Source of the DNA: Opitutia bacterium
Lineage (GTDB): Bacteria; Verrucomicrobiota; Verrucomicrobiia; Opitutales; Opitutaceae
DNA length: 32,550 nt
Direction of reading: 5' to 3'
Assembly (NCBI GenBank): GCA_003142955.1
Contig: PLOH01000070.1
Coordinates: forward strand, 1-32,550
The translations under genes and the position numbers were made by a program. Below, one piece after another: positions 2,756 through 19,543 of this stretch; the stretch's first letter is position 1, and every line of letters begins with the position of its first letter. The notes under the pieces are model-generated. The model saw only the letters and a program-made list of their open reading frames with translations. It was not told where the DNA came from and did not search any database.

Positions 2756-4600
2756 ATGTCGAAGGGTTTTGCCTCGAATTACCGGATGGTGCTGCTCGCC
2801 ACGGGCATCTTCCTCTGCTTTGGTGGCATTGGGGTGCGCCTGGTGTGGCTCCATGTGCTCGAACGCGACGAGCTCCTGAAGTACCTCGAGCAGGCCCGCC
2901 GGTCCTTTATCGTCGAGAATGCCCGCCGGGGAAACATCAGCGCCGCGCGCGGGGAGATTCTCGCCACTAGTCGCACGCTCATGGACGTCGGACTCGATCC
3001 GCACATGCTGCGCCGCGAGGACGAGGCGCGTTGGCCGGATCTGGCGCGGCTGCTGGGCATCAAACTGGACGAGATCCAGGCCGCCGCCCGCCGCGCCCCG
3101 GAAACATCCGAGGATGACGGTCCCGACGCCAAACCGGTGCAGTGGGTGAAGCTCGCCGAGGGCGTGGACGAGGCGGTCTATCAAGGCGACCCGGCCCGGC
3201 ACATCTTGGGAGTTAAGGATCTCAAAATCCGCGGGGTCTACGGCAACCGCGTCTACCGCCGGTTCTATCCGCAAAACTCGCTGGCCGCCCACGTCATCGG
3301 TTACGTCAACCTGCAGGAGGTGCCCGCCGCGGGTGTTGAACACTACATGGATTTCTTCCTGCGGGGCCGGGACGGGTGGCGGGAATCGGAGCGCGACGGG
3401 CGCCGGCAGGAACTGGCGCAGTTCCGCACCCGGGAGGTGCCGGCGGTCGACGGATACAACGTGGTCTTGTCGCTCGACGCGTATGTCCAGCATCTGGTCG
3501 AGAACGAAATGCAGAAGATCGCGGATGAATATTCGCCGGCGAAGGCCACCATCATCGTCAGCGATGCCCGCACGGGTTTTATCCTCGGCCTGGCCAATTA
3601 TCCGACCTTCAACCTCAACGAATACAACAAGGCGCCGATTGGCGCCCTGCGCAATTTCGCCGTCGCGGACGTGTTCGAACCGGGCTCGACGTTCAAGATC
3701 GTGGCCGCCAGCGGCGCGCTGAACGAGCGACTGGTCACGCCGAACAGCGCGTTTGATTGCGGTCTGACCGAGATCGACTACCACAACCGGCATCTCCACC
3801 TGCCGCGGGAGGCGCACGAAGAAGCGTTTCACAACCTGACCGTGGCCGAGATTATCAGCCATTCGAGCAACCGCGGAGCGGCCCAGCTGGCGATGCTATT
3901 GGGCGACCAGCGGTTCTACGACTACGTCCGCGCTTTCGGCTTCGGTCAGAAGACCGGATTCCCGTTCGGCGGAGAGGTCGATGGTTTGTTGGCGCCGCCC
4001 AAGGAATGGGATGGCCTGACGATCACGCGGATGCCCATGGGCCAGTCGGTCGCGGCGACTCCCATGCAGATCCACTGCGCGATGGGTGCCATTGCCAACG
4101 GCGGGATCCTGATGCAGCCGCAGCTGTTTCGCGAGGTGCGAGACGAACATGATGCCCTGGTCTTTGCTTTCAAGGATCAGCCCCGCCGGCGGGTGATCTC
4201 CGAGCACACCGCCCAGACCATGGCCCGCCTGCTGATGGGAGTGGCCTCGAGCGAAGGCACCGCTCCGGATGCTGCCATTCCCCATTTCGAGGTCGCGGGC
4301 AAGACCGGCACCAGCCAGAAGGTCATCGACGGAAAGTACTCGACCTCGCATCACGTCGCGTCGTTTGTCGGCTTTTTCCCCGCCAGCCGGCCGCGGGTGG
4401 TTATCTCCGTTATCGTCGACGATGCCGACGCCCGCAGCCCCCGGGGCATCGCCTATGGCACGAAGGTCGCCGCGCCGTCTTTTCGCCACATCGCCGAACA
4501 GTTGATCCAATATCTGGATATCAAACCCGTCGACCCGCTCCCCGGCTACGGCGGCTTCGCGATGCAAACCGCCGCCGCTGACCAAGGACCACGCCGGTGA
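2756..4600 (+). CDS. ftsI: septal peptidoglycan transpeptidase FtsI (PBP3 class)
   Basis: This class B penicillin-binding protein crosslinks septal peptidoglycan together with FtsW. The 614-aa product has one N-terminal membrane helix (about residues 10-33), a PBP dimerisation domain containing NARRGNISAARGEILATS, and a C-terminal transpeptidase domain. The three catalytic motifs are all present: STFK with nucleophile Ser311, SSN at 370-372 and KTGT at 516-519. There are no PASTA repeats, so it is FtsI rather than a sporulation SpoVD-type protein. An AAGG sequence precedes ATG 2756. The stop overlaps a GTG that could serve the murE frame. Confidence 0.95.
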   Translation: MSKGFASNYRMVLLATGIFLCFGGIGVRLVWLHVLERDELLKYLEQARRSFIVENARRGNISAARGEILATSRTLMDVGLDPHMLRREDEARWPDLARLLGIKLDEIQAAARRAPETSEDDGPDAKPVQWVKLAEGVDEAVYQGDPARHILGVKDLKIRGVYGNRVYRRFYPQNSLAAHVIGYVNLQEVPAAGVEHYMDFFLRGRDGWRESERDGRRQELAQFRTREVPAVDGYNVVLSLDAYVQHLVENEMQKIADEYSPAKATIIVSDARTGFILGLANYPTFNLNEYNKAPIGALRNFAVADVFEPGSTFKIVAASGALNERLVTPNSAFDCGLTEIDYHNRHLHLPREAHEEAFHNLTVAEIISHSSNRGAAQLAMLLGDQRFYDYVRAFGFGQKTGFPFGGEVDGLLAPPKEWDGLTITRMPMGQSVAATPMQIHCAMGAIANGGILMQPQLFREVRDEHDALVFAFKDQPRRRVISEHTAQTMARLLMGVASSEGTAPDAAIPHFEVAGKTGTSQKVIDGKYSTSHHVASFVGFFPASRPRVVISVIVDDADARSPRGIAYGTKVAAPSFRHIAEQLIQYLDIKPVDPLPGYGGFAMQTAAADQGPRR

Positions 4601-4701
4601 TCGCCTATCTCACCCAAAACTATTCCCTCATTCACGCTTTTCGTTCGCCGCCGCGTGGATTAAACTATGAGGGCCGCCTGGCCCACCGCCGCATCTTCAA
4701 C

Positions 4702-6186
4702 ATGGCACCGAAGCTCCAAGACTACTTCACCGACGATGACATCATCGCCGTCAAAGGCGGGCTCGACCGGCCCATCTCGGGCCTGACGATGGACAGCCGC
4801 CGGGTGGTTCCGGGCAGCCTGTTCTTCGCGTTGCCGGGCCTGCGGACCGACGGCGCGGCGTTCATCGACGAGGCGGTCAACCGCGGGGCCGTGGCGGTGG
4901 TCAGCCAGAAGCCGATCATCCTGCCGTACAGCAAGGTCACCTTCATCCAGGTGCCGAATGCCCGGGTGATGCTGGCCCGCGTGGCGCAGCGCTACTACCG
5001 GTTCCCCGACCGCGACCTCGAGGTGGTGGGAGTCACCGGCACCAACGGGAAGACGACCGTCACGCACCTGATCAAGCATTTTCTCAACGGCCAGCAACGG
5101 GTCGGTCTGATCGGCACGGTCAACTACGATCTCGGCCTGCGCACCGTTCCCTCCTACAAGACCACACCGGAGTCGCTCGATCTCTACGGAATGCTGGCGC
5201 AAATGCGCGACGCCGGCTGCCGGCAGGCGATCATGGAGGTGAGTTCGCACGGCATCGACCAGCAGCGCGTCCTCGGAATGCATTTTGGCGCCGTGGTCTT
5301 CACCAACCTGACCCGCGACCACCTCGACTACCACAAGTCGCTCGACGCCTATTTCGAGGTTAAATCCCGCTTGTTTGCCGGCGGCACGGGAACGGTGCCC
5401 AAGGTGGCGGTCGTCAACCTCGACGATGGCTACGGCCGCGAACTGGTGGCCCGGATCCCGGCCGGGGTAAAGCAGGTCACGTTTGGCGAGCATCCGGCCG
5501 CCGACGTCCGCGCCGAGGCGCTCAATCTCGAATTCCGCCGCACCTCCTTCCGGCTCGTCTGGCCGGGTGGAACCGCTGCCGTGGAAAGCCCGCTGATCGG
5601 CCGCTACAACGTGAGCAACCTGCTGGCGGCGCTGGCGACGTGCCATGCGCTCGGCCGGGATCTGGGCGTCCTCCTGCCCAAGCTGGGCCTGTTCAAGAGT
5701 GTGGCGGGCCGCATGGAACGCATCGAGGAGGGCCAGCCGTTCAACGTTCTCGTGGATTACGCGCATACCGACGACGCGTTGCGCAACGCGCTCGGCATGC
5801 TCCGCGCGGTCACGCCCGGCCGGCTGCTGGTCGTGTTCGGCTGCGGCGGCAACCGCGACCGGACGAAGCGGCCGCTGATGACGCGCGCGGTGCAGGAGCG
5901 GGCGGACTTCGCCTGGGCCACGGCCGACAACCCGCGCGGCGAACCCCTGGCCCGGATTTTTGCGGACATGCGGGAGGGCATCGTGGCGCCGGATAAGATC
6001 AACTTCATCGACGACCGCCGCCACGCGATCAGTCTCGCGCTGGATGCGGCGCAGCCCGGGGACTGCCTGCTCATCGCGGGCAAGGGCCATGAATCGTATC
6101 AGGAATTTGCCGACACGATCATCCCGTTCGACGACCGGCAGGTGGTCCGGGAACTCATCGGGGTGAAGCGGATCAAGGAGCCATGA
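4702..6186 (+). CDS. murE: UDP-MurNAc-tripeptide synthetase MurE (meso-DAP type)
   Basis: MurE adds the third residue to UDP-MurNAc-L-Ala-D-Glu using ATP. The Mur-ligase P-loop GTNGKTT has its lysine at residue 117. The motif DNPR at 409-412 is the signature of ligases that take meso-diaminopimelate rather than lysine. ATG 4702 gives a standard N-terminus leading into ISGLTMDSRRVVPGSLFFALPG and a 494-aa protein. The frame is also open to a GTG at 4597 that overlaps the ftsI stop by four bases. The extra 35 codons are AT-richer and unlike any MurE start, so that stretch is more likely a leader. MurF follows 19 bases downstream. Confidence 0.95.
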   Translation: MAPKLQDYFTDDDIIAVKGGLDRPISGLTMDSRRVVPGSLFFALPGLRTDGAAFIDEAVNRGAVAVVSQKPIILPYSKVTFIQVPNARVMLARVAQRYYRFPDRDLEVVGVTGTNGKTTVTHLIKHFLNGQQRVGLIGTVNYDLGLRTVPSYKTTPESLDLYGMLAQMRDAGCRQAIMEVSSHGIDQQRVLGMHFGAVVFTNLTRDHLDYHKSLDAYFEVKSRLFAGGTGTVPKVAVVNLDDGYGRELVARIPAGVKQVTFGEHPAADVRAEALNLEFRRTSFRLVWPGGTAAVESPLIGRYNVSNLLAALATCHALGRDLGVLLPKLGLFKSVAGRMERIEEGQPFNVLVDYAHTDDALRNALGMLRAVTPGRLLVVFGCGGNRDRTKRPLMTRAVQERADFAWATADNPRGEPLARIFADMREGIVAPDKINFIDDRRHAISLALDAAQPGDCLLIAGKGHESYQEFADTIIPFDDRQVVRELIGVKRIKEP

Positions 6187-6205
6187 GCGGCGGAGGAGAC
6201 CAGGG

Positions 6206-7587
6206 ATGACAGCGTTTTCTCCCGACGAGCTGGCGCGCTGGGGCTGCGGGCGCTGGACCGTGCCGCCCGCCGGACCCATCGGCGGCTTCGCGCACGATAC
6301 CCGCGTGCTCCAGCCCGGCCAGCTGTTCGTGGCGCTGGAATCCGACCGCCGCGACGGCCACGACTATCTGGGCGCCGCGGCCGCGGCCGGGGCGGCGGGG
6401 GCGCTGGTCAGGCACGCCGAACCAGGACTCGCCCTGCCCCAATTGGTGGTGGCGGATCCGCTGGAGGCTTTCCAGGCCATCGCGCGGGAGCATCGGCGGA
6501 AGTTCACCGGTCCGGTCATTGGCATTTCGGGCAGCGCCGGCAAAACCTCGACCAAGGATCTGGTCGCGGTGTTGCTCGGCGGCGCGCCGGACGTGCTGGC
6601 CACCGAAGGCAACCGCAACAACCACCTGGGGGTGCCGCTGACCCTGACGCGGCTCGACCCGGCGGTGCACCGGTACGCGGTGGTCGAGGCGGGCATCAGC
6701 CTGCCCGGCGAAATGAAGCAACTGGCCGGCATGATCGAGCCGGATCTGGCGATCATCACCCTGGTGGCGCCGGCCCATCTGGAAGAACTGGGCGACGTGG
6801 AGGGGGTGGCGCGGGAGAAGGCGGAATTGCCGGCGGCCGTCCGGACCGCCGGCGTCGCGGTGTTCCCCCGGCACTGCGAACAGTTCAGCGGGTTCCGCGA
6901 TCTCGCGGTGCGGCGGCTGGTCGTGGAAGCCGCCGACGTGGTGCGCCCGGCGGCCCCGCCGAAGGACCGGGTATTCTTTGCCGTCACCCAGCGCGGCGAT
7001 TCGACCGCCCTGGCCATCGCCTACAGTGCGCCGCCGCCGCTACATTTCACCCTGCGCCGTGTGTCCACCGGCATGGCGCAAAACGCCGTGCTGGCGATCT
7101 GCGCCGCGCTCTGGCTCGGCGTGCCGGACGCGGTCATCCAGGAGCGGCTGGCGGCCTGGCGGCCCGCGCAATGGCGGGGCGAACTGCGGCGCCACGGCGG
7201 CCGGCTGGTGTATCTCGATTGTTACAACGCCAACCCGGCCTCGATGGCCGACGCGCTGGACAACTTCGAGGCGTTGGCGCCCGCCGGCCAGCCGCGCGCG
7301 TACGTGCTGGGCTGCATGGAGGAACTGGGTTCCCGGGCGGCGGACTATCACCGGGAGCTGGGCCGCACCCTGCAGCTGCGCCCGGATGACCGGCTGTTCA
7401 TTGTGGGCGGCCACGCGGCGGCGCTGCGCGAGGGCGTGCTCGAGAACGGTCCGGCGGCCGGGCAGATCGTCATCGCGGCCGGGGCGGCCGCGGTCCGTCC
7501 GTTGCTCGCTTACTTCCCGGGCGCCATTTTTCTGAAAGGGAGCCGCCGCCATCACCTGGAGCAGGCGCTGGATCTGGAGGAGGCCGC

Positions 7588-7594
<7 letters not shown>
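6206..7594 (+). CDS. murF: UDP-MurNAc-pentapeptide synthetase MurF
   Basis: MurF ligates D-Ala-D-Ala to the UDP-MurNAc-tripeptide. The 462-aa protein shows the Mur ligase order: an N-terminal substrate domain (FAHDTRVLQPGQLFVAL), the P-loop GSAGKTSTKDLV with Lys113, TEGNRNNHLGVPLTL after it, and a C-terminal domain with DCYNANPASM. A strong ribosome binding site (GGAGGAG at 6192-6198) sits before ATG 6206. The end overlaps the start of mraY by seven bases. No D-Ala-D-Ala ligase gene (ddl) lies in this cluster, so its substrate must be made from elsewhere in the genome. Confidence 0.95.
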
Positions 7595-8705
<1,111 letters not shown>

Positions 8706-8709
<4 letters not shown>

Positions 8710-10073
8710 ACGCGCCCCTGCCAGCCGGTCCGGATGGTGCGGTCCCGTTCCCCCAGGGGGGCGCCGCCCGGTCCGGCGGCGCGGCACTAACGCCGCCCGC
8801 CTGGCTGGCGCGGCTGTTGGAACGGCCGGTGGCGGTCTTCGGCGGCGGGGTGAGCGGCCAGGCGGTGCGCGACCTGCTGGCGCGGCTGGGCGCCCGCGGC
8901 GAGATGTTCGACGAAAAGCCCGGCGCGGCCCCGGCGCGGTTCTTTGGCCTGGCCGACGCGGCGTCCTGCCGGCTGGCCGTGTTCAGCCCGGGGTTCGCCC
9001 CGGAGCACGCCTGGCTGCGGACCGCCCGCGCCGCCGGCGGCACGTGCCTGGGCGAACTCGATTTCGCGTCGTTGTTCTGGCCCGGCCGGCTCATCGCGAT
9101 CACCGGGACCAACGGGAAGACGACCCTGACCGAGTTGCTCACCCATGCGCTGCGCTCGACCGGGGAGTCGGCCTTCGCCGTGGGCAATGTCGGTTTCCCT
9201 TTCAGCCGGCTGCTGCTCCAGACCGGCGCGGCCGCGGCGACCGCGGTGTGCGAGGTCAGCTCGTTTCAGGCCGAGACGCTGCAGCATTTCCGCGCGGACG
9301 CCACGTTGTGGACCAACTTTGCGGAGGACCACCTGGAACGGCACCCGGAGCTGGCCGGCTATTTTGCCGCCAAGTGGAATCTCGTCAACCATACCCGGCC
9401 GGGCGCGGTTTTTGCCGGCAGCAGCGTTGCGCGGTTTGCCCGTCAGTTCGGCCGGTGGCTTCCGCCGGAGACCTGGGTCAGCACGGAAGGCGCGGCCTTG
9501 GACGCGCGGCTCGAAGGCACGCCGTTCGCCCGCTATCCCCAGCGGGAGAACTTCCAGCTGGCGCTCGCCTGGTGGCGGCACGCCGGGCGGGCTGAGTCCG
9601 GGTTATATGCCGCCGCCCATTCCTTCCAGCTTGGCCGCCACCGACTCGCGCGCGTGGGGGAATGCCGCGGCGTATCGTTCTGGAATGATTCCAAGGCCAC
9701 CAACTTTCATGCGGTGGAAGCGGCCCTGGCCACCTTCTCCGCGCCGGTACACCTCATCCTGGGCGGCCGCTCCAAAGGCGGCGACCTCCGCGCTTTCGTG
9801 GGCCGGATTGCGGGGAAGTGCCGGCATCTCTGGCTGATTGGGGAGACCCGTACGCCGCTGGCCGCGCTCTGTCTGGCGGCAGACATCCCGCATACCGTCT
9901 GCGATTCGTTCGAGGAAGCGGTGTGCGGTGCTGCGGCCGCCGCCCGGCCGGGCGAGTCGGTCGTGCTCAGCCCGGCTTTCGCCAGTTTTGATATGTTTCT
10001 AAGTTATGCTGACCGCGGCGATCAATTTGAGCGACTCGTGGCCAGCCTCAGCGCCACCACCATTTTTCAGTAG
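8706..10073 (+). CDS. murD: UDP-MurNAc-L-Ala D-Glu ligase MurD, TTG start
   Basis: MurD adds D-glutamate to UDP-MurNAc-L-Ala. The product has a Rossmann-like start (VAVFGGGVSGQAVRDLL), the P-loop GTNGKTTL with Lys138, CEVSSFQAE, NDSKATN and the C-terminal SPAFASFDMF. The 455-aa length is normal. No ATG or GTG is available between the mraY stop and the first conserved residues. TTG 8706-8708 overlaps the mraY TGA by three bases (TTGA) and is the only sensible start, so translation is probably coupled to mraY. The first 35 or so residues are rich in Pro, Gly and Ala and poorly conserved. The frame remains open far upstream inside mraY, which is not meaningful. Confidence 0.92.
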
Positions 10074-10119
10074 CCATCCCGCTGCTCACCGACCCATAAT
10101 CCACCATTCCGCACCGCCC

Positions 10120-11175
10120 ATGAATATCTTGAAGATCCTTGGTATTGTCGCCGGCATCCATGTCGTCGCCTTTTTCCTCATGTTTGTTAATCCCGGCTGC
10201 CGGTCCACCAGCTCGACCCAGTCGCCCGTTAATGGCGATCCAGCCCCGGCCCTGACGTCCCAGGCTCCCATTCCGGCCGACACCGGTTCCGGGTCCAGCG
10301 CCGCGGTTTCGATCAACATTCCTTCGCCGGCCCCGGTGCGTTACAGCCCGACGCGTCCTGGCACGCCGGCCTCGGAGGCGTTGGAGAATGCGCCGCTCAA
10401 TGATGTGACGCCGGCCACCACCTACGCCGTGGTCCGTGGCGACAGCCTGTCGAGGATCGCGAAGAAAAACCACTCGACCGTGGCAGAACTGATGAAGGCC
10501 AATCATCTGACCAACAGCTCGGTGTTGAACGTCGGTCAGAAACTGATCGTTCCCGGCAAGGCGCCGGTGGCCGGGTCAATGACGGGTGGCAGTGCCGAAG
10601 TCGCGATGGCGGGTGCCTCTTACACGGTCAAGCCCGGTGACACGCTGGCGGAGATCGCGCATCGGGCCGGCAGCACCACGGCTGAGCTGAAACAGCTCAA
10701 CAGCTTGCGGAGCGATTATGTGCAGGTGGGCCGGGAATTGAAACTGCCGGCGGGTGCTGCTCCCGCCGCGATGGAGCCGGCGCGCAATTTTTCTCCGGCG
10801 GTGCCGACCGGCCCCGCCTCAGTGAAAACGCCGGAAGGCGCCCAGACTTACGAGGTCAAACCCGGCGAGACGCTCGGAGCCATCGCCCGGAAATTCCACG
10901 TGAAGACCCAGGACCTTCTGGTCGCCAACAACATTGCCGATCCGCGAAAAATCCGCCCGGGCCAGAATCTCGTGATCCCGGCCGGTGGTACTTCCGCGGT
11001 GGCGGGTCCGGCAATCAAGCTGAGTCCGGCGGCACCGGCCGCCCCGGGTTCGGCTGCGGCGAACACCGGCACCTCCGTGACGCCGCCTCCGCCGGTTCTT
11101 GATTCCGGCGTGAACCCGCCGGTCGACGTGCCGGTCATCAAGGTCGACGACAGCAGCGAGACCAAGACTCCGTAA
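10120..11175 (+). CDS. membrane-anchored protein with three LysM domains
   Basis: LysM domains bind GlcNAc-containing glycans such as peptidoglycan. The 351-aa protein starts with a hydrophobic segment (about residues 4-25, ILGIVAGIHVVAFFLMFV) followed by NPGC, which only weakly resembles a lipobox. It is therefore either membrane-anchored or exported. Three LysM repeats begin near residues 101, 167 and 243, each with Y-x-V-x-x-GD/E-(S/T)L and an ending like VGQKLIVP. Linkers and the C-terminal tail are rich in Pro, Ala and Ser. Its place between murD and ftsW suggests a wall-binding role in division or envelope assembly, but it has no catalytic domain. ATG 10120 lacks a Shine-Dalgarno sequence. 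Confidence 0.88.
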   Translation: MNILKILGIVAGIHVVAFFLMFVNPGCRSTSSTQSPVNGDPAPALTSQAPIPADTGSGSSAAVSINIPSPAPVRYSPTRPGTPASEALENAPLNDVTPATTYAVVRGDSLSRIAKKNHSTVAELMKANHLTNSSVLNVGQKLIVPGKAPVAGSMTGGSAEVAMAGASYTVKPGDTLAEIAHRAGSTTAELKQLNSLRSDYVQVGRELKLPAGAAPAAMEPARNFSPAVPTGPASVKTPEGAQTYEVKPGETLGAIARKFHVKTQDLLVANNIADPRKIRPGQNLVIPAGGTSAVAGPAIKLSPAAPAAPGSAAANTGTSVTPPPPVLDSGVNPPVDVPVIKVDDSSETKTP

Positions 11176-11290
11176 CGCTTGGCCGTCGGGCCGGTCCGCG
11201 CGCGAACCGCAGACTGTACCCTGCTGGACGGCTGGCCGGTTGGGAAGGCGCATGGCCTTCCCGTTGAGCTGAGTCCATCCTTCTTCCCGC

Positions 11291-12469
11291 ATGTCTCAGG
11301 AACCGTTTGAGAAACCACGGTGGATCGCGGCGTTCAACCCCGCGGTGGTCATGCTCGTCTGTGTTCTGAGCCTCTCGATTCTCGGGTTCACGGTGCTGTT
11401 CAGCGCGAGCGTCTCGCTGAAGGCGGATCCGTATTTTTATCTCAGCAAGCAGCTCCTGTGGTTCGTGCTGGCGGGTGGCGCATGCCTGGTGGTGAGCCGG
11501 ATGGATCTGGAGCACGCCCGTCGTTACGTCTGGGTTTTCGCCGCGGTATGCCTCTTGGGGCTGTTGTTGGTATTGGTTCCGGGAATCGGCATCGCGGTTA
11601 AAGGCAGCCGGCGCTGGCTTGGCTTCGGCCCGGTGCGGCTGCAGATCTCGGAATTTGCCAAGCTGGCGATGATTTTCGGCCTGGCGCATTATCTCGCGCT
11701 GAGCCAGACGCGGATTTCCGAGCTGGGGCGCGGCTTCTTTGCGCCGCTGGCGTGGATCTCGGGGTTTGCCGGGCTGATCCTGCTTGAACCGGATTTTGGC
11801 ACGGCCGCGCTCACGTTCGCGATCGGCGTGGTCCTCTTGTATCTGGCCGGCGGTCGGCTGCGCTATTTGTTCTCGGCGTTTGCCGGCGCCGGCGCGCTGC
11901 TGACGGTGGCGGTGATTCACAATCCCAATCGGCTGGCGCGCTTCCTCGCGTTTCTGGATGTGGAGGGCAACCGGAGTGGCGGAACGTATCAGCTCTGGCA
12001 GGCGATTCTGGCCTTCGCGGCCGGAGGGGTGGAGGGCGTGGGTCTCGGTCAGGGCCGCCAGCAGAACAGCTTTTTGCCTGAGGTGCACACCGACTTCATC
12101 TTCGCGGTCATCGGCGAGGAACTGGGGCTGACCTTCACCATCGGCGTGGTCGTTTTGTTTGCGATCCTGTTCGCCGCGGGGCTGTGTCACCTGCGCAAGG
12201 CCCCCAATCTGTTTCAGTTTCTGCTCGTGGCCGGCTGCCTGCTGCTCATCAGTCTGCAGGCATTGATCAATCTCGGCGTGGTGACCGGGTGCCTGCCGAC
12301 CAAAGGCATGTCACTGCCTTTTATCAGTGCCGGCGGATCGAACCTCTTGCTGATGGGCATTCTCGTGGGGATTTTCCTCAACACGCAGCGTTCCTGGACC
12401 AGGCCCACGCTGATGCATCGCGAGCGCACGTTGAAGGAGGTCACGCGGCCGGAAGGGAGAAGCGGATGA
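11291..12469 (+). CDS. ftsW: SEDS peptidoglycan glycosyltransferase FtsW
   Basis: FtsW polymerises lipid II into glycan strands at the septum, working with FtsI. The 392-aa protein has about ten membrane helices and typical SEDS features: GSRRWLGFGPVRLQISEFAKLA, the conserved acidic residue in EPDFGTA, QQNSFLPEVHTDFIFAVIGEELG and TKGMSLPFISAGGSNL. The last motif has Ala and Asn where most FtsW proteins read SYGGSS. Position between the LysM gene and murG fits FtsW rather than RodA. The leader before ATG 11291 is pyrimidine-rich without a Shine-Dalgarno sequence. The stop overlaps murG by four bases (ATGA). Confidence 0.94.
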   Translation: MSQEPFEKPRWIAAFNPAVVMLVCVLSLSILGFTVLFSASVSLKADPYFYLSKQLLWFVLAGGACLVVSRMDLEHARRYVWVFAAVCLLGLLLVLVPGIGIAVKGSRRWLGFGPVRLQISEFAKLAMIFGLAHYLALSQTRISELGRGFFAPLAWISGFAGLILLEPDFGTAALTFAIGVVLLYLAGGRLRYLFSAFAGAGALLTVAVIHNPNRLARFLAFLDVEGNRSGGTYQLWQAILAFAAGGVEGVGLGQGRQQNSFLPEVHTDFIFAVIGEELGLTFTIGVVVLFAILFAAGLCHLRKAPNLFQFLLVAGCLLLISLQALINLGVVTGCLPTKGMSLPFISAGGSNLLLMGILVGIFLNTQRSWTRPTLMHRERTLKEVTRPEGRSG

Positions 12470-13614
12470 GCCGTTTTCTCATTGCCTGCGGCGGGACGGG
12501 CGGGCACCTCTCGCCGGGCATTGCGCTCGCGGAAGGGCTCACCGCGCGCGGCCATGAGACGACGCTGCTCATCAGCCATAAGAAAGTCGACGCGCGCCTG
12601 ATGGAGAAATACCCGCTGCTCAGATTCGAAAGGATTCCCGGCGTCCACCTGGCGCTCAACCCGGTGGGCTTCTGCCGTTTCTTCTGGCAGCAATTGCAGG
12701 CCTTCTGGTTCAGTGCCCGGTTGATCCGGGCCTGGCATCCCGACGTGATCATTGGATTTGGCGGCTTCACCACGTCCGGCATCATCGTGGTCGCGGCGCT
12801 GTTCCGCCGGGCCGTGGCGCTGCACGAGGCGAACCGCGTCCCTGGCCGCGCCATCCGTCTTCTCGGTGGACTCGCGCAGCGCCTCTACCTGCCGCCGGGC
12901 GTGCATTTGCCAGGGGTGCGACTCGCCGGGGTGCGCCATGTCGGACTGCCCGTCCGCCGCGAGATCATCCGGCTGCCGCACGAGGCGGCGCGAAGCCGGC
13001 TCGGACTGGATCCGGTGCTGAAGGTGCTGGTGATCTTTGGCGGGAGCCAGGGAGCCGCGCCGCTGAATAACTGGGTGCGGGAACGGCTGGCGCGCCTGGC
13101 GGAAGAGGGTATCCAGGTTTACTGTGTGACGGGTCTGGGCAAGGGTGGCGCGGAGGTGCAGGAACTGCGGGCGAGCTCCGGCCAGACGGTCAAGGCCATC
13201 TTCGTGCCGTTCTGTGACGATGTCGCGACGCTGCTGTCGGCGGCCGACCTGGTGGTGTCCCGGGCTGGAGCCGGCACGATCGCCGAGCTCATCCGCTGCG
13301 TCACCCCCGCGATTCTCGTGCCGTTCCCGCAGGCGGCCAACAATCACCAATGGGCGAATGCGCGTTTTTTCGAGCAACAGGGTGGAGGCTTGGTGGTCGA
13401 CCAGCGGTTCCTGGCTGAGCTCGATCGCGAGGTGTTCGATGTCATGTTCAACGACTGGCTGTTGCGCAAGTTTCGCGCGAATCTGCAGCGGATGGACCGC
13501 GCTAATTCGCTGGATCTGATTCTCGACGATCTCGAGGAACTCGCGCTTCCCGCCGGCCGGCCCGCGCCGGGCCTGGCCGCCGCGGCCGCGAAATCCCCGA
13601 CGAAAGCCGCATGA
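12466..13614 (+). CDS. murG: lipid II synthase MurG (GlcNAc transferase)
   Basis: MurG is a peripheral GT-B glycosyltransferase that adds GlcNAc from UDP-GlcNAc to lipid I. The 382-aa product shows the N-terminal GGTGGHLSPG, GFGGFTTSG, HEANRVPGRA (usually HEQN), then GGSQGA in the linker region, SRAGAGTIAEL and PFPQAANNHQWANA in the nucleotide-binding domain. The start at ATG 12466 overlaps the ftsW stop (ATGA), with a purine-rich GGAAGGGAGAAG before it. The stop overlaps the next start by four bases. The last 20 or so residues are an alanine-rich tail. Confidence 0.95.
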   Translation: MSRFLIACGGTGGHLSPGIALAEGLTARGHETTLLISHKKVDARLMEKYPLLRFERIPGVHLALNPVGFCRFFWQQLQAFWFSARLIRAWHPDVIIGFGGFTTSGIIVVAALFRRAVALHEANRVPGRAIRLLGGLAQRLYLPPGVHLPGVRLAGVRHVGLPVRREIIRLPHEAARSRLGLDPVLKVLVIFGGSQGAAPLNNWVRERLARLAEEGIQVYCVTGLGKGGAEVQELRASSGQTVKAIFVPFCDDVATLLSAADLVVSRAGAGTIAELIRCVTPAILVPFPQAANNHQWANARFFEQQGGGLVVDQRFLAELDREVFDVMFNDWLLRKFRANLQRMDRANSLDLILDDLEELALPAGRPAPGLAAAAAKSPTKAA

Positions 13615-15941
13615 GTGCCCGACCGCCGCCCCGACTCTTCGATCGCGATATCCGCTCCGTCCATCTCGTCGGAGTCGGGGGCACCGGCATGGCTCCGCTG
13701 GCCCTTTGCCTTCGGGAGGCGGGGTTCGCCGTGAGTGGGGAGGACGGCGCGCTGGCCCCGCTGGTGCGTCCCTGGCTGGAGCAGGCCGGCGTCGCGCTCA
13801 CGCCGCCCGGCGGAGTGCCTGAGCGGTGTGATTTGCTCGTGCGTTCCTCGGCCGTACCTGTGGACCACCCGGCGCGGGTGCGCGCGCTCGAACGCGGAGT
13901 GCCGCAGGTGCGCCGCGGCGAGATGCTGGCGGAGCTGTTGCGGGACCGGAAGCTCGTGGCGATCGTGGGGGCCCACGGCAAGACGACGACGACCGGCATG
14001 CTCATCACCGCTCTGCATTGCGCCGGCTTTCCCTGTGGCTGGCTGCTGGGGGGACTGCTGGCCGACCAATCGCTGCCGCCCGGACGGCTCGGTCCGGAGG
14101 AATGGGTCGTGGCGGAGATTGACGAAAGCGACGGCACCATCGAGGGCTTTGCGCCCGAGATCACGGTCATCGTCAGTCTCGATTGGGATCATCCGGATCA
14201 TTACGCGCGGATTGAACAGTTGGAAGAGACCTTCCGTCGCCTGGTCGCGCGGACGCGGCGGGCGGTCGTGTTCGATCCGCTTTGCGCGCTTTCGGTCCGG
14301 GTGATGGCGGGGGCGCGCGTCCCGGCGTTCTCGTGTGGCGCGGACGGAAGTTATCGCGCCACCGTCGTGGGCGAATCGGGAGAGCATCTCTCGCTTCACC
14401 TGGAGGGCGAATTTCCCGTGCTCGATGTCCTGGTGCGGGCCCGGGGCGGCTTTAATGCGCACAATGCGGCGGCGGCGCTGGCGGCGGCGCATCTGATGGG
14501 CGCGTCCTTGTCGCGGAATCTGCTGGCGGACTATGCGGGTGCCTGCCGACGGCAGCAGGTGCTCAGTGTCACGGAGCGCCTGACCATCCTCGAGGATTAC
14601 GCGCATCATCCGACCGAAATCCGGGCGCTGCTCGCCAGCCTGCGCCAGCGCACGACGGGCCGGCTCGTGGTCGTTTTCCAGCCGCACCGTTTTAGCCGGA
14701 CGGCCCGGTTCAAGTCCGATTTTGCCGCCGCGCTGGGCCTCGCCGACCGCCTTTTTCTGCTCGACGTCTATCCGGCCGGCGAGGCGCCCGTCCCGGGCGG
14801 CACCACCGCCGATCTCTGCGCCCAGATCGCGCAGACCGGGGGATCCCTGACCGTGACTCATCTGCCGGGCCGCCACCCCGATGTCCTCGGCACCGTGCGT
14901 CCGGCGCTGGAGCCCGGAGACTGGCTGGCCTTTGTCGGAGCGGGGGACATCGATCAATGGGCGCACGAATTCGCGGCGCAAGGAGCTGATGATTTCCGGC
15001 AGACGGTGGATTGGGATCGATGGGTGGCTGAGCTTCGACCGCAACTTTCCCCGGAGACGCGACTGACCCGGGAGGAGCCGCTGGCGCCGAAAACGACGAT
15101 GCGGGCCGGGGGCCGGGCGCGCAGCTATTGCGAGCCGGCGGGGATCGATGATTTGCAGTTGTTGTTGCGCGAAGCGCGCTGGCGCGGGTTGCCGGTTTAT
15201 GCTCTTGGTCGCGGTTCGAACCTGATAGTGCCCGACGAAGGTGTCGACGGATTGGTGGTTTCCCTGGCGCATCCCTGTTGGCAGGCTTGCGAGCTCCGGC
15301 CCGGCGGACGCGTCTGGGTCGGAGCGGGTTTGCGGTTGAAGACCCTGTGCGGCTTTGCCGGCAAGGCCGGCTTGGCCGGATTTGAATTTCTCGAGGGCAT
15401 CCCGGGTTCCGTCGGAGGGGCGCTCCGGATGAATGCCGGTGCCATGGGCGGCTGGATCTTCGATCTGGTCGAGGAGGTGCAGTTCATCGCGCCCACCGGT
15501 GAGGTGCGCACGCTGCCGAGGGAGCAGATGCGGCCGGGTTACCGCCAGTGCGACGAACTACGGGATGCCATTGCCCTGGGTGCGCTGCTGCGGCCGGCGG
15601 CGACGCAGGAGAGCGAAACGATCAGCCGCCACATCGATGTCTACCGCCGCCGGCGCCAGGAATCCCAACCGCGCGAGCCGAGCGCCGGGTGCATTTTCCG
15701 GAACCCGCCGGAGGTCGCGGCCGGGAAACTCATCGAGGAACTGGGCCTCAAGGGCGAGCGGGTGGGGGATGCCGAGGTCTCGTCGGTGCACGCGAACTTT
15801 ATCGTCAATCGCGGCCAGGCCACGGCCGCGGAGATCATCGCGCTGATCCGCCGGGTGCGGGCGCGGGTGCAACAGGCCCGGGGCATCACCCTGGAGCCCG
15901 AGGTGCTGCTCTACGGTCGCGAATGGAAGGACGTTCTGTGA
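13611..15941 (+). CDS. murC/murB: MurC-MurB fusion: UDP-MurNAc:L-Ala ligase plus UDP-MurNAc dehydrogenase
   Basis: One 776-aa protein joins two consecutive enzymes. Residues 1 to about 455 are MurC: VHLVGVGGTGMAPLAL, P-loop GAHGKTTTT, EIDESDGTIEGF, DYAHHPTEI and FQPHRFSRT. From about residue 475 it is MurB, the FAD enzyme that reduces UDP-GlcNAc-enolpyruvate: EEPLAPKTTMRAGG, LGRGSNLIVPDEG, EGIPGSVGGALRMNAGAMGG, then SAGCIFRNPP and SSVHANFIVN. MurB makes the substrate of MurC, so fusion could aid hand-over. The position of the usual catalytic serine is Cys694. No stop or frameshift separates the domains. It overlaps murG by four bases. Confidence 0.95.
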   Translation: MSARPPPRLFDRDIRSVHLVGVGGTGMAPLALCLREAGFAVSGEDGALAPLVRPWLEQAGVALTPPGGVPERCDLLVRSSAVPVDHPARVRALERGVPQVRRGEMLAELLRDRKLVAIVGAHGKTTTTGMLITALHCAGFPCGWLLGGLLADQSLPPGRLGPEEWVVAEIDESDGTIEGFAPEITVIVSLDWDHPDHYARIEQLEETFRRLVARTRRAVVFDPLCALSVRVMAGARVPAFSCGADGSYRATVVGESGEHLSLHLEGEFPVLDVLVRARGGFNAHNAAAALAAAHLMGASLSRNLLADYAGACRRQQVLSVTERLTILEDYAHHPTEIRALLASLRQRTTGRLVVVFQPHRFSRTARFKSDFAAALGLADRLFLLDVYPAGEAPVPGGTTADLCAQIAQTGGSLTVTHLPGRHPDVLGTVRPALEPGDWLAFVGAGDIDQWAHEFAAQGADDFRQTVDWDRWVAELRPQLSPETRLTREEPLAPKTTMRAGGRARSYCEPAGIDDLQLLLREARWRGLPVYALGRGSNLIVPDEGVDGLVVSLAHPCWQACELRPGGRVWVGAGLRLKTLCGFAGKAGLAGFEFLEGIPGSVGGALRMNAGAMGGWIFDLVEEVQFIAPTGEVRTLPREQMRPGYRQCDELRDAIALGALLRPAATQESETISRHIDVYRRRRQESQPREPSAGCIFRNPPEVAAGKLIEELGLKGERVGDAEVSSVHANFIVNRGQATAAEIIALIRRVRARVQQARGITLEPEVLLYGREWKDVL

Positions 15942-16111
15942 ATTTGCTCGAAATTGGCGCGGGCTGCGCCAAAAAAGAATGGCGCGCCGGGCTGAAGCCT
16001 GCCGGCGGCGTGGGGTTGGGTTTTCGCGTTGGACTCCGAGAACCGTTGGCTTCCGCCGTTGAGTCTGGTTGCCCGTTGCCGCTGGTTGTTTGCGCCTGCG
16101 TTTTCCGATGA
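15938..16111 (+). CDS. possible 57-aa coupled ORF between murB and ftsQ
   Basis: A GTG at 15938 overlaps the murC-murB TGA, and the TGA of this ORF at 16109-16111 overlaps the ftsQ ATG, each by four bases. It would thus fill the gap exactly. The product starts MNLLEIGAGCAKKEWRAG and ends with a short hydrophobic stretch. It has no motif I know. The middle (GGGCTGAAGCCTGCC) resembles sequence common in intergenic repeats, so the ORF may simply be a leader that keeps ribosomes moving to ftsQ, or chance. Confidence 0.25.
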   Translation: MNLLEIGAGCAKKEWRAGLKPAGGVGLGFRVGLREPLASAVESGCPLPLVVCACVFR

Positions 16112-17079
16112 GTCTGTCCGCCACTATTCCGCCGCCTTCGCGCTCCTGGAAGGATATCCGCCAGGGGGTCAACCCGCGCGCGATGTCGAGGGAGGGCCAC
16201 CGACGGCGGATGGTGGCCGGCTTGAAATTTGCCGCGGTGTGCGCGCTCGTGCTCGGCGGGGCGGCGGCGGCGATCGAAGTTTTTCTGACCTGGGAAAGCA
16301 ATCCGGCGCGCCTGAAGGACCCCGGCCAAAGCATTCCGCTCCGGCAGGTGATTTTTTCCACCGATGGCGTGCTGGACCGCCCCTGGCTCAACCAGACGCT
16401 GGCGCTGTCGAAAAGGGCGAGCTTGATGAATCTCGACCTGGCGGTGCTGGAAAGCCGGCTGCTCGCCTCGGGGCAGGTGCAGGCCGTGGTGCTCCGGCGG
16501 CGGTTTGCCGACAATTCGCTGGCGGTCACGGTGCAGGAGCGCACCCCGGTCGCCCGTTTGATGGTGCAGGGGAAAGGCGACTCGCCCCGCCTGCGGCTGG
16601 CGGCGCGCGACGGCATGGTCTACGAGGGCGTCGGCTACGAACCCGCGGTGCTGGAGCGGCTGCCTTGGCTGGCCGGCGTGCAGTTGCGGCACTCGGCCAC
16701 CCATGGATTTGAGCCGATTGCGGAGATGGAGCGGACCGCCGACTTGCTGCGGGCCGCCCAGGCCATGGTCCCGGAGCTGTTTGCGGGCTGGCAGGTCGTG
16801 TCGCTGGCCCGATTCGCGTCGGACCAGGAGATCCTGGTGCGCTCGACCCTGATTCCGGAGATTGTGTTTGATGTGCGGGATGAATTCCCCCGCCAACTGG
16901 CGCGGCTGGATTACATCGTCGATTTTCTCCGCTCCAAGGGTGCGCCGCCACTCCAACGGATTGACCTCGCGCTCGGCGGGCAGGTGCCGGTCGAATTGCA
17001 GGAAACCGCCCCGCTCAGACCGGCGCGCGCTTCCCCCCGCGAGACAGCTTCCCAACCAAAACCGCGACGTGATTTCTAA
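16108..17079 (+). CDS. ftsQ: cell division protein FtsQ/DivIB
   Basis: FtsQ is a single-pass divisome protein that bridges the cytoplasmic ring and FtsL/FtsB. The 323-aa product has a basic cytoplasmic N-terminus (about 1-34, with SREGHRRRM), one membrane helix at about 35-55 (LKFAAVCALVLGGAAAAIEV), a region fitting a POTRA domain, and a later FtsQ-like domain containing VQERTPVARL and RLAARDGMVYEG. Sequence identity to classical FtsQ is low, so position before ftsA-ftsZ and topology carry the call. ATG 16108 is preferred over a TTG at 16069. The last 11 bases overlap the presumed ftsA start. Confidence 0.86.
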   Translation: MSLSATIPPPSRSWKDIRQGVNPRAMSREGHRRRMVAGLKFAAVCALVLGGAAAAIEVFLTWESNPARLKDPGQSIPLRQVIFSTDGVLDRPWLNQTLALSKRASLMNLDLAVLESRLLASGQVQAVVLRRRFADNSLAVTVQERTPVARLMVQGKGDSPRLRLAARDGMVYEGVGYEPAVLERLPWLAGVQLRHSATHGFEPIAEMERTADLLRAAQAMVPELFAGWQVVSLARFASDQEILVRSTLIPEIVFDVRDEFPRQLARLDYIVDFLRSKGAPPLQRIDLALGGQVPVELQETAPLRPARASPRETASQPKPRRDF

Positions 17080-18283
17080 GACCAGACTCATTGGCGCCGT
17101 TGAAATCGGCACCTCCAAAGTAACCGTCCTCGTGGGGGAACTCACGCGCGGGCGCACCCTCAACATTGTCGGGTTCGGATCGTGCCCGGCGCGCGGTGTG
17201 ATCAAGGGCGCCGTGGTCGACTACAAAGAGGCGAGCGCGTGCACGCATTCCGCGCTGCAGGCGGCGGAAGAGGGGGCGGGCGCCCCGGTCGACGCGGTTT
17301 ATCTGGCGCAGACGGGCGCGCACCTCGAGGGTTTTTACAACGAAGCCTCGGTCAACGTGAATGCCGCGGACAACTGCGTGGGCGCACTCGACATCGACAC
17401 CGCCTGCCGGCTGGCCATGGCCAAGGAACTTCCGGCCGGCCGCGCCGTGGTGCATCACATCCGGCGGCCGTTCCGGCTGGACGGACGCCTGGTGCCCGAT
17501 CCCGAACACCTCGTGGGTCAGCGACTGGAGGTGGGCTACTGGACGGTGCATGGGAGCGAGGCCAAGATCGGCGATCACATTCACGTCATCACCGGGTTCA
17601 ATCTTCGCGTGGACGAGCTGATTCTGTCGAGTCTCGCCGCCGGCACCATGGTGACCACGCCCGAGGAGCGTCAGCATGGTGTGCTGGTCCTCGACGTCGG
17701 CTGCGGGACGACGGATTACGTCCTCTACCACGACGGGGTGGCCTATCAGACCGGCGTGGTACCGGTCGGCGGGGACCATTTCACGAACGACCTTGGTCTC
17801 GGGTTGCGGCTCACGCGGCCGCAGGCCGAGAAGCTCAAGCTGCGCTACGGCTCGGCCATGTCGCGATCGCGCGACAAGCACGACAAGGTCTGGCTCAACG
17901 GCGACTATTCGGTCGGCGACCGGCAGTTTCCGCGCCAGTCGATCGAGCAGATCACCGCCGGCCGCGCGCGCGAGTTGTTCGAGGTGGTGCGGGCCAAGCT
18001 CGGCGCCGCCTTTGTGCCGGAACAGACGCCGGTGGGCGTGGTTCTGACTGGGGGGGCGGCCAAGATGCCGGGGATGGACGAGGCCGCGGGCAAGGTCTTC
18101 GGGGTCTCCGGACGGCTGGGCGAGCCGGCGTCGTGGGTCGCCGACGAACTGCGCGATCCGGGCTTCAGCACTCCGCTCGGGCTGCTTTATTTCGGCCTCA
18201 ATTCGCAGGCGGAGCGTCAGCCCGCCGCCCGGCGGAGCGGTGGTCTTTTTGGAAGCCTCAAGCGCATTCTGGCTGCCTCCTGA
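17069..18283 (+). CDS. ftsA: cell division protein FtsA (actin-like FtsZ anchor)
   Basis: FtsA is an actin-fold ATPase that tethers FtsZ to the membrane. The 404-aa product has the phosphate-1 loop VEIGTSKVTVLVGEL (usually DIGTSK, here Glu), phosphate-2 LDVGCGTTDY (usually DIGGGT) and the adenosine motif VVLTGGAAKMPGM. The C-terminus GLFGSLKRILAAS fits the amphipathic membrane-targeting helix. GTG 17069 is the only start that keeps the conserved N-terminus, overlapping ftsQ by 11 bases. ftsZ starts three bases after the stop. The nucleotide-motif substitutions suggest a diverged but complete FtsA. Confidence 0.93.
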   Translation: MISKTRLIGAVEIGTSKVTVLVGELTRGRTLNIVGFGSCPARGVIKGAVVDYKEASACTHSALQAAEEGAGAPVDAVYLAQTGAHLEGFYNEASVNVNAADNCVGALDIDTACRLAMAKELPAGRAVVHHIRRPFRLDGRLVPDPEHLVGQRLEVGYWTVHGSEAKIGDHIHVITGFNLRVDELILSSLAAGTMVTTPEERQHGVLVLDVGCGTTDYVLYHDGVAYQTGVVPVGGDHFTNDLGLGLRLTRPQAEKLKLRYGSAMSRSRDKHDKVWLNGDYSVGDRQFPRQSIEQITAGRARELFEVVRAKLGAAFVPEQTPVGVVLTGGAAKMPGMDEAAGKVFGVSGRLGEPASWVADELRDPGFSTPLGLLYFGLNSQAERQPAARRSGGLFGSLKRILAAS

Positions 18284-18286
18284 GTC

Positions 18287-19543
18287 ATGCAATTCGATCC
18301 TAACCACAACGAGCTTCCACTCACCCACGAAATCCTCACCGACCGGTCGATCGCCATCAAGTTGGTCGGCGTGGGCGGCGCGGGCTCGAACGCCATCGAC
18401 CGGCTCAAGATGGACAACCTGGAGCGGTTGCAGCTCGCCGTCATCAACACTGATCTGCAGGCATTGTCCTCCTCCCCGGTGCAGGACAAGATTCTGATTG
18501 GTGGTCAGTTGACCCGGGGGCTCGGCACGGGTGGCGAACCGGAGTTGGGCCGTCAGGCGGCCGAGGCCGACCGGGATAAGATCGCCGCGGTGGTGAAAGG
18601 ATGCGATCTCGTGTTCCTGCTGGCCGGGTTGGGTGGCGGCACCGGCGGCGGCGCCACTCCCATTGTCGCCGAGGTGGCGACCGAGCAGGGAGCGCTGGTC
18701 ATCGCCTTTGTCACGATGCCCTTCAGCTTCGAAGGCGGCCGGCGGTTGAAACAGGCGGAGGAAGGCTTGACGGCTTTGCGCCGCGCCTGTGATGCGGTGA
18801 TTCCGCTCTCCAACGATGTGCTGCTGCAGGAGTGCAGCGACAGTACCGGGGTCCTGGCGGCGTTTGCCCAGGCGGACGCGTGGATTGGCCGCGGCGTGAA
18901 ATCGATCTGGTCGATGCTGTTCCGCACCGGTCTGATCAACCTCGATTTTGCCACCCTGCAACAGGTGTTTCAGTCGCGGGGCGGCAAGACGCTGTTCAGC
19001 CTCGGCAGCGGCGAGGGCCCGCAGGCGGTGGCCCAGGCCATCGAAAGCATCAAGCTCTGTCCCTTGCTGCATCCGACGGAGTACTCCCGCAAGGCGGACC
19101 GCCTGCTCGTTAATATCATTGGCGGCACCGATCTCACGCTGCCGATGGTGAACGAGCTCATGACCGCGATCACCGGGCAATACGGCCGGGATTCGCATGT
19201 CATTATGGGCGCGGTGATCGATGAGGGCATGCAGCAGCGGCTGGAGGTCTGTGTGATTGGCACGACGGATGTGGGCAACCGCAGCCAGACGCCTTGGCGC
19301 CCGCGGAACGCCGGCCGCCTGGCCGCCCCCGCCCGGGCCGTGAACGAAAAACCTGCCAGCGCCGCGGCAGGGCCGGTGGCTGTGCCCGATCCGGTGTCAG
19401 CGGCCCGAGCCGAGCAGAACGAATTCTCATTTTCAGAGGTGGAGAGCCGGGGCCACTTCGACAAGACCGACCGGAATCTCTTCGAGGGGCAGGATCTCGA
19501 CGTTCCGACCTACCTGCGCAAGGGAATCAAGATCGCGGTGTAG
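18287..19543 (+). CDS. ftsZ: cell division GTPase FtsZ with altered T7 loop
   Basis: FtsZ is the tubulin-like GTPase of the division ring. The 418-aa protein shows KLVGVGGAGSNAIDRL, NTDLQAL, the tubulin signature LGGGTGGGATPI, VTMPFSFEG, and the C-terminal conserved peptide DLDVPTYLRKG that binds FtsA. The T7 loop reads GLINLDFATLQQVF at about 215-228. The first catalytic aspartate is present (Asp220), but the second, in the family motif NxDFAD, is Thr223. A variable linker rich in Ala and Pro (about 345-400) precedes the C-terminal peptide. It is the last gene of the dcw run, followed by a repeat array and no clear terminator. Confidence 0.96.
   Translation: MQFDPNHNELPLTHEILTDRSIAIKLVGVGGAGSNAIDRLKMDNLERLQLAVINTDLQALSSSPVQDKILIGGQLTRGLGTGGEPELGRQAAEADRDKIAAVVKGCDLVFLLAGLGGGTGGGATPIVAEVATEQGALVIAFVTMPFSFEGGRRLKQAEEGLTALRRACDAVIPLSNDVLLQECSDSTGVLAAFAQADAWIGRGVKSIWSMLFRTGLINLDFATLQQVFQSRGGKTLFSLGSGEGPQAVAQAIESIKLCPLLHPTEYSRKADRLLVNIIGGTDLTLPMVNELMTAITGQYGRDSHVIMGAVIDEGMQQRLEVCVIGTTDVGNRSQTPWRPRNAGRLAAPARAVNEKPASAAAGPVAVPDPVSAARAEQNEFSFSEVESRGHFDKTDRNLFEGQDLDVPTYLRKGIKIAV

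Follow-up and report, generated by a model that had tools for sequence, protein, structure and literature searches.

A single ftsZ at the end of a division and cell wall cluster

The window, meaning the whole stretch of 32,550 nucleotides analyzed here (contig PLOH01000070.1 of the Opitutia bacterium assembly GCA_003142955.1), carries a division and cell wall (dcw) cluster on its forward strand at positions 2756 to 17079. The cluster encodes, in part, an FtsI-type penicillin-binding protein, MurE, MurF, MraY, MurD, a LysM-type protein, and FtsW, and further contains murG, a murC-murB fusion, and an open reading frame in the ftsQ position that had no family match. The LysM-type gene (10006 to 11175) lies between murD and ftsW, and the MurC-MurB fusion (13611 to 15941) is of a kind also known in Verrucomicrobium spinosum (PMC12283558). 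Downstream is ftsA (17069 to 18283, forward strand), which encodes 404 amino acids from an inferred GTG start and matches TIGR01174 with 276 bits. The ftsZ gene (18287 to 19543, forward strand) closes the cluster, directly after the stop codon of ftsA at 18283.

A search of the 4.29-Mb assembly for members of the tubulin/FtsZ family matched this gene alone, and its product of 418 amino acids is the single FtsZ of the genome. The translation, which includes RTGLINLDFATLQQVF, passed the NCBIfam ftsZ model (TIGR00065) with 309.4 bits against a cut-off of 295.2. An AlphaFold2 monomer had a mean pLDDT of 83.5 (91 to 92 in the blocks of the T7 loop), and its closest PDB matches were Staphylococcus aureus FtsZ; the predicted monomer supports the FtsZ fold alone. 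The C-terminal conserved peptide DLDVPTYLRKGIKIAV (19493 to 19540, forward strand; by translation and alignment) is intact, containing DVPTYLRKGIKIAV, and DVPTYLRK at the C terminus aligns with DIPAFLRK of Escherichia coli.

One of the two T7-loop aspartates is replaced by threonine

The T7 synergy loop of this protein, GLINLDFATL (G215 to L224; 18929 to 18958, forward strand), lacks the N-x-D-x-x-D pair and reads N218-L-D220-F-A-T223. When the protein was aligned by MAFFT with E. coli K-12 FtsZ, the reference taken from NC_000913, LMNVDFADVR stood over LINLDFATLQ with no gap through the loop, and phmmer alignments to solved FtsZ proteins (2vam, 2rhh, 4u39, 2r6r, and 2vaw) likewise placed T223 on the second Asp. 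The initial annotation had assigned Thr223 to the position of Asp212 by eye, and both kinds of alignment bear this out. It had also described the lost residue as one of two that complete the GTPase site of the neighboring subunit, in agreement with what is reported for S. aureus FtsZ (PMC8936486). The codon of T223, at the position of E. coli D212 and S. aureus D213, is ACC (18953 to 18955, forward strand), two base changes from an Asp codon.

The rest of the active site is kept. The catalytic Asp is present as D220 (E. coli D209, S. aureus D210; codon at 18944 to 18946, forward strand), N218 corresponds to E. coli N207 (18938 to 18940, forward strand), R153 corresponds to E. coli R142 and S. 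aureus R143 (18743 to 18745, forward strand), and the T2 residues N54, D56, and Q58 (18446 to 18460, forward strand) correspond to E. coli N43, D45, and Q47; the T3 glycine G71 of E. coli is retained as well. The T4 signature (18632 to 18652, forward strand) is GGGTGGG, where the usual form is GGGTGTG or GGGTGSG, so that the core GGGTGxG is present and the stricter GGGTG[ST]G is not, the sixth residue being Gly. This variant occurs in three of the six genomes of the genus. The claim that the other FtsZ motifs are intact therefore stands for the C-terminal peptide and fails for the strict form of T4. Since one of the two T7 aspartates is missing, we do not class the window protein as a two-aspartate FtsZ GTPase.

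Loss of the second aspartate is a trait of the order

The FtsZ regions of relatives were sampled by taxonomic distance, and positions 209 and 212 were read in E. coli numbering. The sample leaves out L001, the loci that repeat genomes (L122 to L135, L137, L139, L140, L142, L147, and L150), and L008, which has no FtsZ; three rows of family f103 (L337 to L339) and L173 have gaps within the loop and went unscored. Thr is found at position 212 in all six genomes of the genus, the window included. Across the order, D212 is kept in only 3 of the 152 scored rows (155 FtsZ rows in all), the position being occupied by T in 86, A in 24, S in 22, Q in 8, H in 5, D in 3, and G, K, Y, and I in 1 each. Position 209 is acidic in 150 of the same 152 (D in 147, E in 3), which argues for strong constraint on the Asp that remains. 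The other active-site residues are also widely kept in the 155 rows (D45 in 146, G71 in 153, R142 in 145 with K in 5 more, and N207 in 134). A tree made with the T7 columns removed places the FtsZ proteins of the order in one group (48 rows, SH-aLRT 100). Four named order loci, from "Candidatus Synoicihabitans palmerolidicus" (T at 212), an uncultured Puniceicoccaceae bacterium (S), and two Opitutae metagenome-assembled genomes (T and T), fall inside families f1 and f2 in the tree, and on this ground we describe the family of the window as Opitutaceae-like.

Each of the three exceptions has its own form. L334 has both aspartates, and two more rows from its family carry S and T; L323 has E209 and D212; and L340 is a second FtsZ, of the type that has lost D209, in genome G420. 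This genome, which belongs to family f4 of the order, encodes two FtsZ proteins (L340 and L341) with complementary half-sites, one of the order's own type with D209 kept and T at 212 and the other with G at 209 and D at 212.

An error of sequencing or assembly, or a misalignment of the loop, has a negligible chance of explaining Thr223. Nothing that we found supported it, the ACC codon is two substitutions away from Asp, the loop aligns without gaps, and the Thr or the loss is common to the genus and the order. Aligning the FtsZ proteins of relatives, the check that the initial annotation had proposed, showed a lineage trait, and the outcome that it had linked to a sequence error, with most relatives carrying Asp, is the reverse of what the order shows. 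The loop with one aspartate is real and is due neither to chance nor to error.

Much of the rest of the phylum keeps one aspartate or the other

The breakage of the T7 pair extends over most of the phylum and often proceeds by loss of the other Asp, which goes beyond the initial annotation. In the same class outside the order (52 rows), 13 FtsZ proteins have both aspartates, 39 keep D212, 18 keep D209, and 1 has neither acid; in the other classes of the phylum (44 scored rows), the corresponding numbers are 11, 19, 33, and 3. Loops such as GLINVGLDDL and GLIQLSFADV, in which D209 is lost and D212 kept, occur in many families. Counted per family (n = 75, before the last 40 loci were added), both acids are kept in 20, only 209 in 24, only 212 in 28, and neither in 3. 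The class totals include the loops of family f13 (L152 to L154, read as TE, NS, and GE), from genomes of 2.3 to 2.5 Mb whose FtsZ proteins are so divergent that the alignment of the T7 loop is uncertain. Outside the phylum, by comparison, both D209 and D212 are present in 77 of 77 FtsZ proteins (76 named records from many phyla and E. coli). Of the two search patterns that yielded these loci, one spans the T7 loop and permits T, S, or D at its last place; the 20 loci that matched the second pattern and the 17 that did not match the T7 pattern were all D/D.

A tree of 162 FtsZ rows, from which the T7 columns had been excluded, required at least 14 changes of acidity at position 212 and at least 15 at position 209. 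The two losses were compared under a two-trait model of correlated loss on a tree of 214 rows, in which family f1 was reduced to one row per genus and the f13 rows and rows with few filled columns were left out; the IQ-TREE trees were made under LG+G4 with no mixture and a short search. The dependent model was better than the independent one (likelihood ratio 22.6, 4 degrees of freedom, P = 1.5e-4). The fitted loss rates were 0.47 to 0.51 from the two-acid state against 0.03 to 0.13 once one acid had been lost, so that after a first loss the second acid went about 3.5 times (212) to about 17 times (209) more slowly. The result held with one row per genus (P = 0.0008), with a FastTree tree (P = 0.0013), with one row per family (P = 0.0076), with the order left out (P = 0.032), and with only Asp counted as retained (P = 0.027), although this last coding, in which Glu does not count, weakens the rule in that 11 of 197 rows have no Asp at either position. 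Against the rule, simulations of independent losses gave double losses as few as observed in 99 of 1,000 runs. The trend in an independent-pairs test was as expected (3.4 pairs against 0.4) and was not significant, with low power (median P = 0.22 to 0.25). Taken across the phylum, these sequence comparisons make a rule by which one acid may be lost if the other is kept well supported but not proven.

Five scored rows have lost both acids. The FtsZ proteins with neither T7 acid are L172, L184, L186, L316, and, uncertainly, L153, and judged from their loops they would be the phylum's best candidates for an FtsZ without GTPase activity.

FtsA and the division machinery

The initial annotation had proposed that FtsA also has altered nucleotide motifs and that the pair may have codiverged. 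Neither proposal was upheld. The phosphate-1 (EIGTSK) and adenosine (LTGG) motifs of the window FtsA are normal. A comparison of 119 FtsA rows showed that the Cys of the phosphate-2 loop (DVGCGTTD) is a feature of all six genomes of the genus; most of the family has Ala there, and other phyla have Ala or Gly. Several members of the order with Ser212 in FtsZ carry the standard GGGT in FtsA, and codivergence was dropped. It was stated in 2008 that the evolution of ftsZ was accelerated and that of ftsA was not (PMC2474590), and the normal FtsA nucleotide motifs seen here fit the latter statement.

The same work stated that MinC, MinD, and MinE were lost, perhaps at the ancestor of the superphylum (PMC2474590); the loss of Min from the superphylum and the accelerated evolution of FtsZ are thus already in print. 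A search for the MinC C-terminal domain had no match in 188 genomes of the class (6 of 14 controls matched), and a search for ZapA had none in 19 relatives (4 of 14 controls matched). With MinC and ZapA undetected, part of the usual turnover machinery appears to be missing.

Some genomes of the order had no recognizable FtsZ. When the window protein was used as the query (E value of at most 0.001), 28 of 132 order genomes had no match; they belong to families f89 and f102 to f105, and many of those listed are 0.8 to 1.0 Mb in size. This suggests reduced genomes that divide without a recognizable FtsZ.

A probable one-acid GTPase and the alternatives to it

According to published work, both T7 aspartates are conserved among species, and FtsZ requires them for assembly or hydrolysis (PMC8936486). 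In S. aureus FtsZ, the catalytic water is positioned by D210 (E. coli D209), which swings; D213 (E. coli D212) is static and contacts R143 through water (PMC8936486). Measured against these roles, what the order has lost is the static Asp, and the swinging Asp and the arginine are retained. Substitutions of the static residue have left some activity in other proteins: residual GTPase was 7% in E. coli D212A and about 15% in Arabidopsis FtsZ1 D275A (PMC8142252), and that of D212G was reported as nearly 10-fold lower, with less than 1% also quoted, and with static rings (PMC7320174), while the same mutant has been cited as functional for E. coli division (PMC4383033). By analogy with these mutants, slow hydrolysis and long-lived filaments would be expected in the order. 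The D213N change in S. aureus is reported to abolish assembly (PMC8936486), and an FtsZ with one acid can therefore be defective.

We think it fairly likely, from the comparisons above, that the window encodes a functional sole FtsZ that works with one T7 acid, Asp220, in a phylum that may lose either Asp if one acid stays. Early in the order, the second Asp would have given way to Thr, Ser, Ala, or Gln, none of them charged, and the loss would then have been kept. Asp220 of the upper subunit may direct the attacking water at the GTP in the lower subunit, where the conserved Arg153 and the T2 and T3 residues would assist it; the hydroxyl of Thr223 might hold water at most. By analogy, the window FtsZ probably hydrolyzes GTP slowly with its one acid, and both hydrolysis and the turnover of the filament are probably slower than in E. 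coli and above zero.

Hydrolysis would be normal if another acid, from the same subunit or its neighbor, had moved into the site. The FtsZ proteins of the order share 32 diagnostic substitutions, and a conserved acid is found in the H9-S8 loop beside a short insertion (E265 in the window; Glu or Asp in 133 of the 155 rows). E265 was considered as the compensating acid and dropped, because E. coli and part of the class (16 class rows) have acids in the same stretch, so that it is not a clear gain. Elsewhere, no other position of T7 or early H8 has turned acidic among the order's proteins (no more than 7 of the 155 rows at any of them), and no diagnostic substitution puts an acid at the catalytic residues of T2, T3, or H5. 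The order-specific substitutions and the T7/H8 scan of 155 rows thus offered no clear compensating acid near the site, and such a shift seems unlikely. It is rather improbable, too, that the order's FtsZ is effectively dead as a GTPase, binding GTP in static filaments, with division driven by ring assembly and cell wall synthesis and not by treadmilling. The static rings of D212G in vitro (PMC7320174), the report that this mutant divides E. coli (PMC4383033), and the failure to detect MinC and ZapA would agree with it, but a protein that had abandoned catalysis would not require an acid at 209 in 150 of 152 rows, nor the retention of R142 and D45.

Decay under relaxed selection, with residue 212 carrying no functional meaning, would account for the divergence of FtsZ across the phylum, where only 15 of 145 genomes passed the cut-off of the ftsZ model, against 13 of 13 controls with a match, and for the 28 order genomes without a match; in Methylacidiphilum and Prosthecobacter, ftsZ is stated to have evolved at an accelerated rate (PMC2474590). 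The loop of the order is otherwise tightly conserved (D209, N207, and F210), however, and position 212 holds mostly residues that are small, or polar and uncharged, with its Thr encoded by four synonymous codons. In V. spinosum, moreover, ftsZ is reported as essential by transposon sequencing (PMC12283558). We regard decay as quite unlikely.

Relation to known FtsZ proteins and significance

The window FtsZ shares with the canonical proteins of E. coli, S. aureus, and Bacillus subtilis the fold, the GTP-binding loops, the residues D45, R142, N207, and D209, the FtsA-binding peptide, and the dcw location, and differs from them in having Thr for the second T7 Asp and GGGTGGG in T4. E. coli D212A and D212G and Arabidopsis FtsZ1 D275A are uncharged at the same position and have low, nonzero GTPase activity (PMC8142252, PMC7320174); these laboratory mutants were engineered in two-aspartate proteins, whereas the change in the window is natural, old, and fixed in a sole FtsZ. 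The FtsZ of "Candidatus Thiosymbion oneisti" is another natural protein with low GTPase activity in vitro, but the description of that protein calls its T7 loop fairly conserved and its catalytic residues conserved (PMC8953583). The FtsZ proteins of V. spinosum and other Verrucomicrobia are reported as divergent yet essential and located in the dcw cluster (PMC1845146, PMC12283558), and that of V. spinosum was termed canonical in 2007, with eight divergent conserved positions (PMC1845146). The other families of the class, in our sample, mostly lose D209, unlike the window's order. Within the superfamily, beta-tubulin has a T7 loop without the catalytic acid, and the neighboring site does not hydrolyze; beta-tubulin is one of two alternating subunits, whereas the window FtsZ forms a homopolymer. 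In the literature searched, a scope that did not extend to Pilhofer et al. 2008, we found no report of the loss of a T7 aspartate in verrucomicrobial FtsZ or of the either/or pattern of the pair.

Because the order has lost one Asp and its relatives in the phylum have often lost the other, an essential filament may run on a single catalytic acid. It is possible, and we put it forward tentatively, that the pair in Verrucomicrobiota is an either/or device in which one acid suffices, at 209 or at 212 three residues away, and that whole orders have had a one-acid, slow-turnover Z-ring, with MinC lost, since their origin. Drug designs that presume both T7 aspartates call for caution. A phylum that keeps now one Asp and now the other would offer a natural test of which of the two engages the water, and its one-acid FtsZ proteins a natural test of the minimum GTPase activity for a working Z-ring and of the need for treadmilling in division.
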